This document shows positions 58,606-64,000 of a stretch of DNA of 64,000 nt, one piece after another. The DNA lies in contig NZ_JAHXBF010000010.1 of assembly GCF_020103695.1 (NCBI RefSeq), forward strand, positions 248,001 to 312,000. Direction: 5' to 3'. The notes below the pieces were generated by a model that saw only the letters and a program-made list of their open reading frames with translations, did not search any database and had not been told where the DNA came from. Source of the DNA: Hyalangium versicolor (GTDB lineage Bacteria; Myxococcota; Myxococcia; Myxococcales; Myxococcaceae). Position 1 is the stretch's first letter; every line of letters begins with the position of its first letter. The position numbers and the translations under genes are program-made.

Positions 58606-60009
58606 ATGGGACAGGACAACTCGCCCCCCCGAGGAAAGCCTCCCGGCTCCCGCCCGGCTCCCCCAGGTCGAGCCGAGGATCGGGAGTCCACGGCCCCAAC
58701 CGTCCCTATGAAGCCCATCCCCATCCCGGGGACGGAGAAGAGCTCCAGTGCGCCCACCGTGCCGATGCGGCCGGTCCGTGTGCCCGAGGCAGACAGGAGC
58801 TCCACGGCTCCGACTGTCCCCATGAAGCCCATCCCCGTGCCGGGTGCGGACAGGGGCTCTACGGCTCCGACCATCCCGATGAAGGCGGTGCCACTCCCCT
58901 CCTCCTCCGTGGAGAGCCCGGGCCCGGTCGCTGCGCCCATGGCGGAACGGCCCGCCGAGCCAACTCCCCGCTCTCCGCAACTCACGGCTTCTCGCCCGGT
59001 GGCTCAGCCCTCGCGCGCGGAGAAACCGGGCCCACTTCCCGAAGCTCCCCAGCGTGCCGCACCTCGCGCTGCTCCCGTGACAGGAGTCGCAGTCAGCCAG
59101 AAGCCCCCCGCCGCCGAGAACCGGGAGACCACCGGCAGCCGCTCCACGGTTCCGCAGCCACAGCCCGCGACGAAGCCCGGCCCCCCGGCTGCCGAGCCAC
59201 GAGCCGCTGTCGCTCCCATGATCGAGGTCTTCCGCCCCAGCCCGCCTGCTCCCCCGAGCCCGCAGACTGCCACTCCCGAAGCTCCTGTCCCCCAGAAGGC
59301 CAAGATCCCTGAGGCGGATGCGCCCCGCCGACCAGGCCAATCCACCTCGGTGATGCTGAGAGCCAACAAGCTCCACAAGCTGCTCGATCAGTCCGGGCAG
59401 GGCCTCAAGAACGCGCTCCCGCGCAGACCCAGTTCTCGCTCGAAGCGCTCCCCCTTCGCCCCCGCTCAGCCCGGAACCTCCGCCGTGGGCGCCTCCACAC
59501 CCCCTGCGAAGCTCGTCCTGGCCCCCATCGAGAGCCATCCCGGCGAGCGCACGCCCCAACAAACCCAGAACGTCATCCACCAGTTCGCCGTGGCGACCAA
59601 CCCCCGCTACGCACAACGAACCCAGGAGTTGGGCGAGGCGGGACACCTCTTCGTCTTCGACGTGATGAACGCGCTGCACACCACGCTGGGCACGGCCTTC
59701 CCCACGGGCCCGAGCTCCTTCCGACCTGGCACGCTCGCGGAGATCTGGAAGTGGCTGCACCAGACCGCGCTCTCGCAAGGCTGGCGCGAGGTGGCAGGCC
59801 CTGCCCTGCTCGATGCGGCGGCACGAGGCCTGCCCATCATCGCCATGGCGAAGACCTCCGCCGGCCCGAAGCTCGCCGTGGTGGAACCGGGGCCGCCAGG
59901 TCCCGACGGCAAGCCCCGCCTGGCCAGCGCGCACGAGCCGCGAGGCCAGCAGCAGTCACCCGCCACGCTCTTCGGCTCGAGCCCCGTGCGCTACCTGGCC
60001 CACGACTGA
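58606..60009 (+). CDS. Proline-rich repeat protein with a C-terminal domain
   Basis: 467 residues; GAGGTG lies before the ATG. Residues 28-98 hold four tandem 19-residue repeats with the core S-T-A-P-T-V-P-M-K-P, followed by a long Pro/Ala/Thr-rich linker to about residue 240 and a basic, helix-like stretch (VMLRANKLHKLLDQSGQGLKNAL). A globular C-terminal domain (about 325-467) contains GHLFVFDVMNALHTTLG, then EIWKWL, and RGLPIIAMAK with AVVEPG. The spacing recalls CHAP/NlpC-type hydrolases, but the expected cysteine is absent (GHLFV in its place). No signal peptide. Function unknown. Confidence 0.72.
   Translation: MGQDNSPPRGKPPGSRPAPPGRAEDRESTAPTVPMKPIPIPGTEKSSSAPTVPMRPVRVPEADRSSTAPTVPMKPIPVPGADRGSTAPTIPMKAVPLPSSSVESPGPVAAPMAERPAEPTPRSPQLTASRPVAQPSRAEKPGPLPEAPQRAAPRAAPVTGVAVSQKPPAAENRETTGSRSTVPQPQPATKPGPPAAEPRAAVAPMIEVFRPSPPAPPSPQTATPEAPVPQKAKIPEADAPRRPGQSTSVMLRANKLHKLLDQSGQGLKNALPRRPSSRSKRSPFAPAQPGTSAVGASTPPAKLVLAPIESHPGERTPQQTQNVIHQFAVATNPRYAQRTQELGEAGHLFVFDVMNALHTTLGTAFPTGPSSFRPGTLAEIWKWLHQTALSQGWREVAGPALLDAAARGLPIIAMAKTSAGPKLAVVEPGPPGPDGKPRLASAHEPRGQQQSPATLFGSSPVRYLAHD
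58687..58899 (+). repeat. Four in-frame 57-base tandem repeats
   Basis: The segment encodes repeats beginning at residues 28, 47, 66 and 85 of the 58606 protein, exactly 19 residues (57 bases) apart, each with APT(V/I)PM(K/R). It is a coding repeat, not a CRISPR or intergenic array. Confidence 0.85.
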
Positions 60010-60195: not shown

Positions 60196-61404
60196 ATGCA
60201 ATCCGACTTTCGACGCGTCTTCAACCAGCGGTTCTCCCCTGAGTTCTACGAGCAGTACCGCAATCGGCTGCAGTCCGTAGTGGGTCCGGTTCCGTATCGC
60301 CTCGCGGAGTCACCGCTCTTCATTCCTCTCGCGGTCCGCGACCGCATCTTCCAATACACGCGAGAGATCATCGCCCAACTGGCGGAGCCGGATCGCATCG
60401 CGCGCGCGCGCCGAGCTGTCCCCCCCGAGTTCGACGTACCGAACCAGGACGCGGCGCCGGACGTGATGACGGTGGACTTCGCCGTCGTCCGAGGCGCTGA
60501 CGGTGAGCTGGACGGGCGCGTGGTGGAGTTGCAGGCCTTCCCGTCGCTGTTCGCCTTCACCATGATCCAGGCGCGCATCTTCAACGAGATGATGCAGATG
60601 CCGGATGCCGCGAAGGGCTTCCACTGCTTCGCCCCCGGCTACGACTACGACAGCGCCCAGGCCTTCTTCCGCCGTGCGCTGCTGGCCGGCCACTCTCCGG
60701 AAGAGGTGATCCTGCTGGAGATCGAACCACAGCGGCAGAAGACGCTCCCGGACTTCATCGCGACGCAGCTGATGACGGGCGTGGATGCCGTCTGCGTGAC
60801 GGACGTCCAGCGCGAGGGCCGGCAGCTCTTCCGCGTGAAGGACGGCCGCCGCATCCGCATCAAGCGCATCTACAACCGGGTGGTCTTCGACGAGCTCCAG
60901 CAGAAGAAGCCGCCCATGGCGTTCAAGTTCACGGATGACCTGGACGTGAGCTGGTTCCCGCATCCCAACTGGTATTGGATGTGGTCGAAGTTCTCGCTGC
61001 CGCTGCTCGACCACCCGGCGGTCCCCAAGGCCACACCCCTGGCGCAGTTGAAGGAAGTGCCAGCGGACCTCGAAAACTACGTGCTCAAGCCGCTGTTCTC
61101 GTACGCAGGCGCGGGTGTGAAGGTGGATCCGACGCCCGAGGACATCGCGAAGGTCCCCTCAGAGCAGCGTGAGGGTTGGATCCTCCAGCGGAAGATCACC
61201 TACGCGCGCGAGATGTGGACGCCCGATGGCCAGGGTGTGGCCGCGGAGATCCGCGTGCTCTGCCTGCGGGACCAGGGTCAGCGCCTGCCCGAGCCCTTGA
61301 TGAACCTCGCCCGGCTGTCCCGGGGAAAGATGCTCGGGGTCGACTTCAACAAGGGGCTCGACTGGGTGGGCTCCTCCGTGGCCCTCTGGCCGAGGGCGGA
61401 GTAG
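60196..61404 (+). CDS. ATP-grasp-like conserved protein
   Basis: 402 residues, no recognised family from memory, but with ATP-grasp-like signatures. KRIYNRVVFDEL near residue 225 and YVLKPLFSYAGAGVKV near 296 resemble the nucleotide-binding lysine and glycine loop. GWILQRKITYA and AAEIRVLCL follow, where ATP-grasp enzymes have metal-binding acidic residues. The N-terminal 200 residues (DFRRVFNQRFSPEFYEQY onward) form a separate helical domain. It is convergent with, and 78 bases from, a YbdK-type ligase. Together with the next three genes it may form an amide-bond-forming pathway. Confidence 0.62.
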   Translation: MQSDFRRVFNQRFSPEFYEQYRNRLQSVVGPVPYRLAESPLFIPLAVRDRIFQYTREIIAQLAEPDRIARARRAVPPEFDVPNQDAAPDVMTVDFAVVRGADGELDGRVVELQAFPSLFAFTMIQARIFNEMMQMPDAAKGFHCFAPGYDYDSAQAFFRRALLAGHSPEEVILLEIEPQRQKTLPDFIATQLMTGVDAVCVTDVQREGRQLFRVKDGRRIRIKRIYNRVVFDELQQKKPPMAFKFTDDLDVSWFPHPNWYWMWSKFSLPLLDHPAVPKATPLAQLKEVPADLENYVLKPLFSYAGAGVKVDPTPEDIAKVPSEQREGWILQRKITYAREMWTPDGQGVAAEIRVLCLRDQGQRLPEPLMNLARLSRGKMLGVDFNKGLDWVGSSVALWPRAE

Positions 61405-61482
61405 CCCCCAGCCACGAGCGCGAAGGAGGTCCCCTCCGGGCCGCCTTTTCAGGCGAGGCCTCGCCGTTCGAGTCCTGCGCCG

Positions 61483-62637
61483 TCAGCCGGTCTGGCTGGC
61501 GGACGAGGACGAGGAGCTCACACCGCGCATCGTCTCTTCGATGAGCCAGCGGGTGACGGCGCGCGTGTCGTTGTTGCTGTTCTTGTAGACCTCCAGCTGC
61601 CGCTCCGCGGAGGTGCCTTCCGTGACGATCTTGCGCACGTTGGCGACCTCGTGCGAGGTGCCCAGGATGTCCGAAGCCTCGGAGACGAACTCGATCATCT
61701 CCTCGAGCAACTCCGTGTACGGGCGCTCCTTCTGCTGGCCGAAGTCGATGAGCTTGCCGCGGATGCCGTAGCGGCTGGCCCGCCACTTGTTCTCCTCGAC
61801 GAGCGGCGACATGTAGTGGCGCCAGGACATGTTGCGCCGCAGCAGCAGGTACAGCTTGGCCACCAGCGCCTGGATCAGCGAGACGATCGCGATCTCCTGG
61901 TGCAGGTTGGTGGGCATGTCGCAGATGCGGATCTCCACCGTGTCGAAGACGTGGTGGACGCGCACGTCCCACCAGATCTTCTTCCCGTTGTCGATGCAGT
62001 TGGTCCGGATGAGCAGGTCCACATACTCCATGAACTGGGAGTAGCTCTCGAACGTGGGCGGGATGCCGGTGCGCGGGAAGCGCTTGAAGATGAGCGTGCG
62101 CTGCGACTGCTGGCCCGTGGCGCGCCCCAGCCAGAACGGCGACGAGGTGGAGAGCGCCAGCAGGTGCGGCAGGAAGTACCGGATCTGGTTGGCCAGGGCG
62201 ATGGCCGTCTCGCGGTCCTTGATGCCCACGTGGACATGGAGCCCGAAGATCAGGTTGCCGCGCGCGATGTCCTGCAGGTCCTCCACGATGACGTGGTAGC
62301 GCGGGTTGGGGGTGATCTCCTGGTTCTTCCAGTCGCTGAACGGGTGCGTGCCCGCGGCGACGATGTTCATCCCACCCTTCCGCGCCAGCCGGTCCAGCTC
62401 GATCCGCATCTCGGTGAGCTCGTTGCGGACCTCGTGGATGCTCTTGCAGATACCCGTGCCGACCTCGACGACGGACTGGTGCATCTCCGCGCGAACCCGC
62501 TCGCGGAGCACCGTCTTGCCGTCATCCATCATCTTGGAGATGTACGAGCGCAGCTCGTGCGTCTGCCCGTCGACGATCTGGAACTCTTCCTCGACACCCA
62601 GCGTGAACTGCCCATCCAGCGGAGATGGCGCGCCCAT
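61483..62637 (-). CDS. YbdK-type carboxylate-amine ligase (GCS2 family)
   Basis: 384 residues from the ATG at 62637; the frame reaches 62748, but that part lies within the ATP-grasp gene. The N-terminus LGVEEEFQIVD is the glutamate-cysteine ligase 2 signature; GLHVHVGI in the middle and VEIRICDMPTN are the other conserved segments. Family members join an amine to a gamma-carboxyl with ATP; E. coli YbdK has weak gamma-glutamylcysteine synthetase activity. The next gene upstream is an ATP-grasp ligase, five bases away. A Ser-rich tail (GVSSSSSSASQTG) ends the protein. Confidence 0.88.
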   Translation of the reverse strand: MGAPSPLDGQFTLGVEEEFQIVDGQTHELRSYISKMMDDGKTVLRERVRAEMHQSVVEVGTGICKSIHEVRNELTEMRIELDRLARKGGMNIVAAGTHPFSDWKNQEITPNPRYHVIVEDLQDIARGNLIFGLHVHVGIKDRETAIALANQIRYFLPHLLALSTSSPFWLGRATGQQSQRTLIFKRFPRTGIPPTFESYSQFMEYVDLLIRTNCIDNGKKIWWDVRVHHVFDTVEIRICDMPTNLHQEIAIVSLIQALVAKLYLLLRRNMSWRHYMSPLVEENKWRASRYGIRGKLIDFGQQKERPYTELLEEMIEFVSEASDILGTSHEVANVRKIVTEGTSAERQLEVYKNSNNDTRAVTRWLIEETMRGVSSSSSSASQTG

Positions 62638-62642
62638 GTTCG

Positions 62643-63650
62643 TTACCTCGCCTTCGCGACGGCAGGAATCGCAGCAGCAGCAGTGGCCCGGGGGCTGGCC
62701 GGAGTGGCCGCCTGTCGGGGTGCCTTCTTCTCCAGGTAGCGCTGCCACGCGTGGTTCGTGTCGTTCTTGCGGCCCTCACGCGCGGCGCTGATACACAGCT
62801 CGGACATCTTCTCCAGGCACCACTCGTAGTTGTCCGGGAGGATGTGGTGCGGATACATGTCCGGCGCCGGGTTGGTGAAGTCGATCGCGTACGGAACGCC
62901 GTCCTTGATCGCAAACTCCACCGAGTTCATGTCGTAGCCCAGCGCCCGGTTCAGCTCGCGCGCGTTGTCGATGATGCGGGCCTCGAGCGCGGCGGGCAGG
63001 AAGTTCTTGTCCGGCAGGTAGCTGCGAGTCTTCACGTCGTAGCGGATCATCCGCACGTGCTCGCGGCCGATGACCAGGCAGCGCACGTAGTCATCGAACT
63101 CGATGAACTGCTGCATCGTCAGCACCAGCTGGCCCGAGTCATTGTAGACGCGCATCAGCTCGTCCATGTTGTTGACGCGGTTGACGTTGCGCCAGCCACC
63201 GCCGTCCGCTGGCTTGCAGATGGCCGGGAAGCCCACGTACCGGGCGATGGCCTGCCAGTCGAGCGGGTAGACGAGGTTGTTCAGCGAACGCTGCGGATCG
63301 ATGGCGGGGATGTACTCGCGCTGCGGGAGCATCACCGTCCGGGGAACGGTGACGCCGATGCGCGCGGCCAGCGAGAAGCCGAAGAACTTGTCATCCGCCG
63401 AGAACCAGAACGGATCGTTGATGACGTAGGTGCCGGCCAGCATCGCCGCCTTGAGGTGGAACCGGTAGAACGGCACCTCGTGGCTGATACGGTCGACGAG
63501 CACGTCATACTTCGCGGTGAAGTTCTCCGGGGTGGCGTCGATCTTCGCCAGCTCCGCTTCGAAGCCGGGGACCTTGTTGATGCGCTCGATGAGCGCCATC
63601 GGGAAATGGTCCCACTCCATCCCTGCAATGATTCCAATCTTCTTGTTCAC
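62643..63650 (-). CDS. ATP-grasp (RimK/GshB-like) ligase
   Basis: 335 residues. ATP-grasp landmarks in order: DVLVDRISHEVPFYR, KFFGFSLAARIGVTVPRTVMLP, the lysine of GFPAICKPADGGGW, MQQFIEFDDYVRCLVIG and the metal site YAIDFTNPAPDM (N-x-x-P in place of the usual DxN/E pattern). The C-terminus carries an Ala/Pro tail. The ATG overlaps the stop of the amidotransferase gene (ATGA), and the YbdK ligase follows by five bases, so these form one operon. It likely makes an amide or peptide bond on a small molecule or protein tail. Confidence 0.86.
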   Translation of the reverse strand: MNKKIGIIAGMEWDHFPMALIERINKVPGFEAELAKIDATPENFTAKYDVLVDRISHEVPFYRFHLKAAMLAGTYVINDPFWFSADDKFFGFSLAARIGVTVPRTVMLPQREYIPAIDPQRSLNNLVYPLDWQAIARYVGFPAICKPADGGGWRNVNRVNNMDELMRVYNDSGQLVLTMQQFIEFDDYVRCLVIGREHVRMIRYDVKTRSYLPDKNFLPAALEARIIDNARELNRALGYDMNSVEFAIKDGVPYAIDFTNPAPDMYPHHILPDNYEWCLEKMSELCISAAREGRKNDTNHAWQRYLEKKAPRQAATPASPRATAAAAIPAVAKAR

Positions 63651-64000
63651 GTATTGCTCTCCGCTGAAACCGCGGTTTCCGTAGGACGTCCGAAGGCATC
63701 CAGGCCCACGGCCGCGTCGTATGTCGGCATGTCCACCGGCGCCCAGTCACGATCCAGTGCCAGCGCGTTGAAGCTCCGAGCCATCCACCCCGGCAGCAGC
63801 AGCGCATAGGTGCGTGCCAGCCGCGTCGGATCGTCGATGGTCTTGCACATGCGGCGGTAGATGAGTTCGCCGTAGGTCTCGATGACGGCCTTGGCCTGCT
63901 CCGGGCGCTCGAGCCAGTTGAGCACCCCGGGCCGGTCCGCCTCGGGGTGGAAGATGGTGCCCTCGACACCCGAGGAGAAGCGGAAGGCCATCAGCCCTCG
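63647..64000 (-). CDS. Class I glutamine amidotransferase-like protein (partial)
   Basis: The frame runs from the right edge to a stop overlapping the ATP-grasp start. The 118 visible residues are a C-terminal part: the end of a class I amidotransferase domain with the catalytic His-x-Glu in GTIFHPEADRPG, then a helical tail (about 90 residues) ending TETAVSAESNT. The nucleophile cysteine would be outside the window. An in-frame ATG at 63991 is not the start, since the conserved domain is incomplete. It is the first of the three coupled genes seen here. Confidence 0.75.
   Translation of the reverse strand, partial: RGLMAFRFSSGVEGTIFHPEADRPGVLNWLERPEQAKAVIETYGELIYRRMCKTIDDPTRLARTYALLLPGWMARSFNALALDRDWAPVDMPTYDAAVGLDAFGRPTETAVSAESNT

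Follow-up and report, generated by a model that had tools for sequence, protein, structure and literature searches.

The right-hand end of a 64,000-nucleotide stretch of Hyalangium versicolor DNA (the window; C3:248001-312000, part of a 13.56-Mb genome) carries a set of genes for amide-bond-forming ligases, with peptidase genes just beyond it. We propose that this locus is part of a conserved, co-inherited module of amide ligases and peptidases that makes and turns over a cytosolic, non-ribosomal small peptide or amide conjugate, probably of gamma-glutamyl type, and we put the probability of this reading at about 55%. It draws on which genes are present and how the operon is built, on predicted folds with their catalytic residues intact, and on co-occurrence across genomes and correlated evolution. 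Three kinds of ligase and an L-amino-acid-ligase-like enzyme sit with peptidases of families S8, M17 and M29.

Layout of the locus

An earlier note on this DNA had described an amidoligase-type cluster of four reading frames, all of which proved to be present, intact and at or near the places where it put them. The amidoligase-type set stands; however, the note had seen only part of the module and missed its peptidase half. In what follows, A402 is the protein encoded from position 60196 and GAT1 is the protein with an amidotransferase fold. Sequence to the right of the window is numbered as L003 (L003 coordinate = window coordinate - 53999).

60196-61404, + strand: A402, 402 amino acids, by predicted structure a ligase with a circularly permuted ATP-grasp, in one class with glutathione synthetase and glutathionylspermidine synthetase (YgiC/YjfC)
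61483-62637, - strand: GCS2/YbdK-type carboxylate-amine ligase, 384 amino acids, ATG at 62637 (PF04107, PRK13515)
62643-63650, - strand: RimK-like ATP-grasp ligase, 335 amino acids, GTG start (sub-cut-off TIGR00768, profile match)
63647-64000, - strand: C-terminal part of GAT1, its last 117 codons in the window, predicted class I amidotransferase fold
C3:311647-312597 = L003:9648-10598, - strand: complete GAT1 gene, 316 amino acids
L003:10661-12241, - strand: S8 subtilase, right of the window, 62 bases upstream of GAT1
L003:11889-13532, + strand: M17 aminopeptidase, right of the window
L003:14018-15238, - strand: L-amino-acid-ligase-like ATP-grasp protein, 406 amino acids, right of the window

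Because the S8 gene lies on the GAT1 strand only 62 bases upstream, the operon likely has the order S8-GAT1-RimK-GCS2. The gaps between its genes are 62, -4 and 5 bases. The five-base gap reported between the RimK-like and GCS2 genes is real (CGAAC), but the overlap between the GAT1 stop and the RimK-like start reads GTGA rather than ATGA, as the RimK-like gene starts with GTG. The ATP-grasp-like gene that was said to face the others does so, with A402 converging on GCS2 across 78 bases. A scan of the locus for promoters and terminators gave no signal exceeding shuffled sequence.

A precursor, transporter or regulator had been thought worth seeking to the right of position 64000. That sequence revealed the S8, M17 and 406-amino-acid ATP-grasp genes and a PF00756 esterase, which escaped the first reading because they lie outside the window; a small lipoprotein-like gene and a glyoxalase-family gene are found there as well. 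The operon genes are spaced too closely to leave room for a precursor peptide between them. With no graspetide ligase model among the NCBIfam matches either, we rejected a graspetide cluster or any other cluster for ribosomally synthesized and post-translationally modified peptides. As listed, the reading frames of S8 and M17 overlap head to head; since S8 conservation begins only near residue 133, the true S8 start probably lies downstream of the listed one.

Predicted enzymes and their catalytic residues

The GCS2 protein is by its sequence matches a clear YbdK-type member, passing both curated cut-offs (PF04107, 214.2 bits against 21; NCBIfam PRK13515, 521.9 against 371) and matching the YbdK structure 1r8g (E 1.7e-49). 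The RimK-like protein, in contrast, scores 39.7 bits against a curated cut-off of 143.4 for TIGR00768 (E 3.5e-10). We therefore rejected its identity as a RimK alpha-L-glutamate ligase and regard it as an ATP-grasp relative, which also has a profile match to the D-Ala-D-Ala ligase 3r23 (E 1.2e-7). Its residues K146, E245, D257 and N260 are invariant in 57/57 relatives. The 406-amino-acid ATP-grasp protein matches the L-amino acid ligase-type structure 4wd3 (E 1.4e-26).

Sequence searches with A402 returned no significant match, with Pfam GSP_synth only below threshold and weak sequence matches in the PDB. Its predicted structure (predicted local distance difference test, pLDDT, 85.8) was informative: Foldseek retrieved 3n6x, a putative glutathionylspermidine synthase (E 1.8e-13), yeast glutathione synthase (E 2.5e-13) and YjfC. 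The ATP-grasp fold expected by the earlier note is thus supported, and these matches refine it to a circularly permuted form, predicted to belong with the glutathione/glutathionylspermidine synthetases. A402 appears to share this fold with the eukaryotic-type glutathione synthetases and the glutathionylspermidine synthetases (3n6x, 1m0w, YjfC 7uk6, YgiC 7uk8), and its motif YVLKPLFSxAGAGV aligns locally with YgiC; it differs from them in an identity of only 12-15%, its sub-cut-off Pfam score and the other ligases around it. Residues K298, E111, Q113, E351 and R353 are invariant in 48/48 relatives and were mapped onto glutathione synthetase by motif. At L149:4636-7239, we noted an 867-amino-acid frame that resembles a sodium-solute symporter in its N-terminal part and consists of A402 in its C-terminal part. 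It is possibly a fusion or a frame artefact, and it is not repeated in L151 and L152, where a similar frame sits upstream.

Full-length GAT1 matched no Pfam family at E 0.1 and no curated amidotransferase sequence model, and sequence-only searches of the PDB gave weak matches. Its fold came from a structure predicted for an 88% identical orthologue (pLDDT 80), which Foldseek placed near two glutamine amidotransferases, DnfC and TM1158, and also near subunits of GMP synthase, gamma-glutamyl peptidase 1 (GGP1) and MetA, with template modelling scores of 0.67 for DnfC (by target) and 0.68 for TM1158. A Cys-His-Glu triad (C116/H217/E219) is invariant in 56/56 relatives. The claim of a class I amidotransferase is thus upheld for the fold by the predicted structure and the triad, features that gamma-glutamyl peptidases and MetA share. 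For GAT1, as for the RimK-like protein and A402, the catalytic role of the invariant residues is assigned from alignment and known motifs. A divergent GAT1 (161 bits) occurs in a genome of the same family (G110, L059:9261-10076) with no RimK-like, GCS2 or A402 neighbour; with surroundings this different, it may have been acquired separately or have another function.

Distribution and operon variants

The module neighbours come together again in Bacteroidota as well as in 13 Myxococcota genomes, with proteins 29-50% identical, which is more than a chance arrangement. GAT1 was present in 15/195 sampled Myxococcota, and an orthologous RimK-like gene in 14/147 genomes of the class (matches >500 bits). 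The genes are adjacent in nearly all Myxococcota carriers, with S8 beside GAT1. Within the source genus the cluster is patchy, and its presence in 3/7 genomes suggests loss or transfer. A 467-amino-acid protein with repeated APTVPMKPIPIPG-like segments and no Pfam match, encoded just upstream of A402 (window 58606-60009, +), lies beside the cluster in one close relative only (L023).

In a sample of 395 Bacteroidota genomes, GAT1 occurred in 86, A402 in 114 and the RimK-like gene in 134. Under Fisher tests, which treat genomes as independent, the families co-occurred strongly: 84/86 GAT1 genomes also had the RimK-like gene (p 1.8e-47), 110/114 A402 genomes had it as well (p 7e-68), and 69/86 GAT1 genomes had A402 (p 2.5e-30). 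GAT1 was linked to neither the RimK-like gene nor A402 in 21/86 genomes, and in 14 of those 21 A402 and the RimK-like gene were linked elsewhere. Since co-occurrence persists where the genes lie unlinked, the set acts as a functional unit even without a single operon. Distances within the four families correlate between their matrices (r 0.73-0.88), as is expected of any vertically inherited set, which shows only that the families have not been exchanged independently. Together, these results bear out the conservation of the four genes as a set in both phyla. The scattering in related genomes that would have spoken against the cluster was not what we found, although many Bacteroidota carry the genes unlinked yet co-occurring.

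The usual Bacteroidota operon reads c3 (a PF00756 hydrolase)-RimK-GCS2-GAT1-A402, and several are flanked by M17, an L-amino-acid-ligase-like ATP-grasp gene and a second PF00756 hydrolase (c5). Some operons contain RimK-GCS2-A402 without GAT1 (L130, L131, L148), so GAT1 is not an obligatory member. In five Bacteroidota loci (L133-L137; for example L133:10284-11303), an M29 metallopeptidase fills the GAT1 slot. Nor is GAT1 strictly tied to GCS2: in six Bacteroidota loci, c18, a protein with weak matches to circularly permuted ATP-grasps, stands in for GCS2 and A402, giving RimK-c18-GAT1. The rule that recurs across these variants is ligases plus a hydrolase. A second, related cluster in Myxococcota (L045:5355-17773; L046, L047, L051, L053, L055) brings together, in most members, a RimK-like paralogue, a GCS2 protein with fused CBS domains, an S51-like protein, two PF00756 hydrolases, several ATP-grasps and a glycogen synthase gene (glgA). 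The ATP-grasps number three in the set noted for L045-L047, L053 and L055, whose gene content varies between members.

Function of the module and competing explanations

In the pathway that we propose, GCS2 would join the gamma-carboxyl of glutamate to an amine or amino acid, and the RimK-like and A402 enzymes would add further residues or an amine. The L-amino-acid-ligase-like enzyme may add or supply a dipeptide in many genomes. The product would be trimmed or recycled by peptidases (S8 and M17 at this locus, M17 or M29 at others) and by the PF00756 hydrolases, and GAT1 would act on it. Several points weigh against this proposal. The substrates and the product of the module are predicted only, and fold similarity at 12-22% identity gives no substrate specificity. 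Linkage is incomplete, with GAT1-RimK pairs within 6 kb in 54/84 Bacteroidota genomes, and the genomes counted in the Fisher tests share ancestry. Two further features would fit ammonia donation too: GAT1 carries GGPxxP, a motif typical of glutaminases, and it hardly occurs in genomes that lack the RimK-like gene.

The earlier note had the enzymes use ammonia from glutamine, which is not established, because GAT1 is optional, is replaced by M29 in five operons and has gamma-glutamyl peptidases and homoserine acyltransferases, besides glutaminases, among its nearest folds. As an obligate ligase partner it is equivocal, having a RimK-like gene in 84/86 of its genomes and being linked to it in only 54. 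Its optional presence and the M29 in its slot favour a make-and-break peptide pathway and make glutamine-dependent amidation less certain. We give even odds to GAT1 hydrolysing a gamma-glutamyl or isopeptide bond of the product, which we rate at least as likely as ammonia donation since the operon variants are recurrently ligases plus a hydrolase. That it delivers glutamine ammonia to one of the ligases falls somewhat short of even; acyl transfer as in MetA would surprise us.

Some Bacteroidota neighbourhoods raise the possibility that the ligases build, and the hydrolases mobilise, a reserve. This could be an oligomer or polymer that stores amino acids, like cyanophycin, or a peptide that primes glycogen or is attached to it. 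In L115, L116, L124 and L125 the full amidoligase set has glgA-glgB on one side and cphA-cphB-isoaspartyl peptidase on the other, so that these loci could be islands for a storage polymer. Glycogen genes also precede c3-RimK-c18-GAT1 directly in L096 (glgA-glgC), and glgA adjoins clusters of ATP-grasp, esterase and RimK-like paralogue genes in five Myxococcota loci. The parallel with cyanophycin metabolism (CphA, CphB, isoaspartyl peptidase) extends to ATP-grasp ligation and a GATase-fold-related hydrolase. However, the four loci with cyanophycin genes are closely related to one another, with cphA 92% identical, and their linkage therefore probably arose once. In most Bacteroidota loci, as in the window locus, glg and cph neighbours are absent, and the set has no polymerase-type repeat-addition enzyme. 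No CphA lies near the window locus, and GAT1 differs from the cyanophycin hydrolases in having a Cys nucleophile and no S51 match. We consider a reserve function unlikely. A more specific form strikes us as quite improbable: a new reserve or priming system, linked in two phyla to the metabolism of glycogen and cyanophycin, in which GCS2, the RimK-like ligase and the circularly permuted ATP-grasp would make a non-ribosomal amide oligomer and hydrolases of the GATase-fold, M29, M17 or S8 kinds would mobilise it.

Modification of protein tails, which the earlier note had also entertained, found no direct support. Here a protein would receive glutamates or some other amino acid from the RimK-like enzyme; the remaining ligases would lengthen or cap this tag, and removal would fall to the peptidases. 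RimK relatives are known from the literature to glutamylate ribosomal protein S6, and several ligases with peptidases, including an S8 subtilase within the operon, would suit tagging and de-tagging. This account seems rather unlikely to us, as the RimK-like protein falls far under the RimK family cut-off, no small substrate protein recurs among the conserved neighbours, and the annotated neighbours include no proteasome, AAA or alpha-E partner. A glutathione-like thiol, for which GCS2 would make gamma-glutamylcysteine and A402 and the RimK-like enzyme would add groups as in glutathionylspermidine, appears very improbable. The fold of A402, the ligation of glutamate and cysteine by GCS2 family members and the resemblance of GAT1 to GGP1, among others, would fit such a pathway. 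The cluster GCS2 belongs to PRK13515/YbdK, though, and not to the GshA models, and the conserved neighbours show no thiol-redox partner genes. In addition, the genome encodes another GCS2 protein at C8:243415 and, at C15:38546, a protein that matches GshB strongly (GSH-S_ATP, 222.9 bits), and such separate glutathione-type genes, present also in genus members without the cluster, weaken the thiol explanation. They rule out the cluster as the main glutathione route of the organism, as the earlier note had it in denying a match to glutathione synthesis. We also rejected an anti-phage defence system: PADLOC models match the S8 protein only, and all are subtilase-type.

Amide ligases grouped with peptidases are an established type of neighbourhood. 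The 2009 survey by Iyer, Abhiman, Burroughs and Aravind reportedly described amidoligase-peptidase neighbourhoods in which various ligase folds lie beside unrelated peptidases, with ATP-grasp and GCS2 together. The present module follows that theme, with amide ligases of multiple folds beside unrelated peptidases. The tagging system in the survey is said to combine an NTN-hydrolase peptidase with an alpha-helical domain, neither of which is among the annotated neighbours here. Ligation by ATP-grasp, an amidotransferase and a peptidase also share one cluster in the N-acetylglutaminylglutamine amide (NAGGN) osmolyte pathway, which works alike; its amidotransferase, though, is of class II (AsnB-type) and its ATP-grasp is joined to an acetyltransferase, and both are absent here. 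MurT-GatD and other class I GATase-ligase pairs likewise place a class I GATase fold beside ATP-dependent ligases; unlike them, our module has no Mur ligase, and its GAT1 is optional and, in 21/86 Bacteroidota genomes, unlinked. A literature search of titles and abstracts, with most subscription journals outside it, returned no paper describing this gene set, and the priority of this exact set is uncertain. Among its references, PMC4431377 includes the amidoligase survey of Iyer et al. 2009 (Mol Biosyst 5:1636).

With GAT1 in about a fifth and the RimK-like gene in a third of the sampled Bacteroidota, plus scattered myxobacteria, the module defines two families without a usable Pfam match, a divergent one with an amidotransferase fold and a bacterial ATP-grasp one that resembles glutathione synthetase. 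If GAT1 is a hydrolase, it would caution against assuming that a GATase fold next to a ligase always supplies ammonia. The recurrent partners (M17, M29, S8, the L-amino-acid-ligase-like enzyme and, in certain lineages, genes for glycogen and cyanophycin) provide concrete hypotheses toward a new peptide metabolite.

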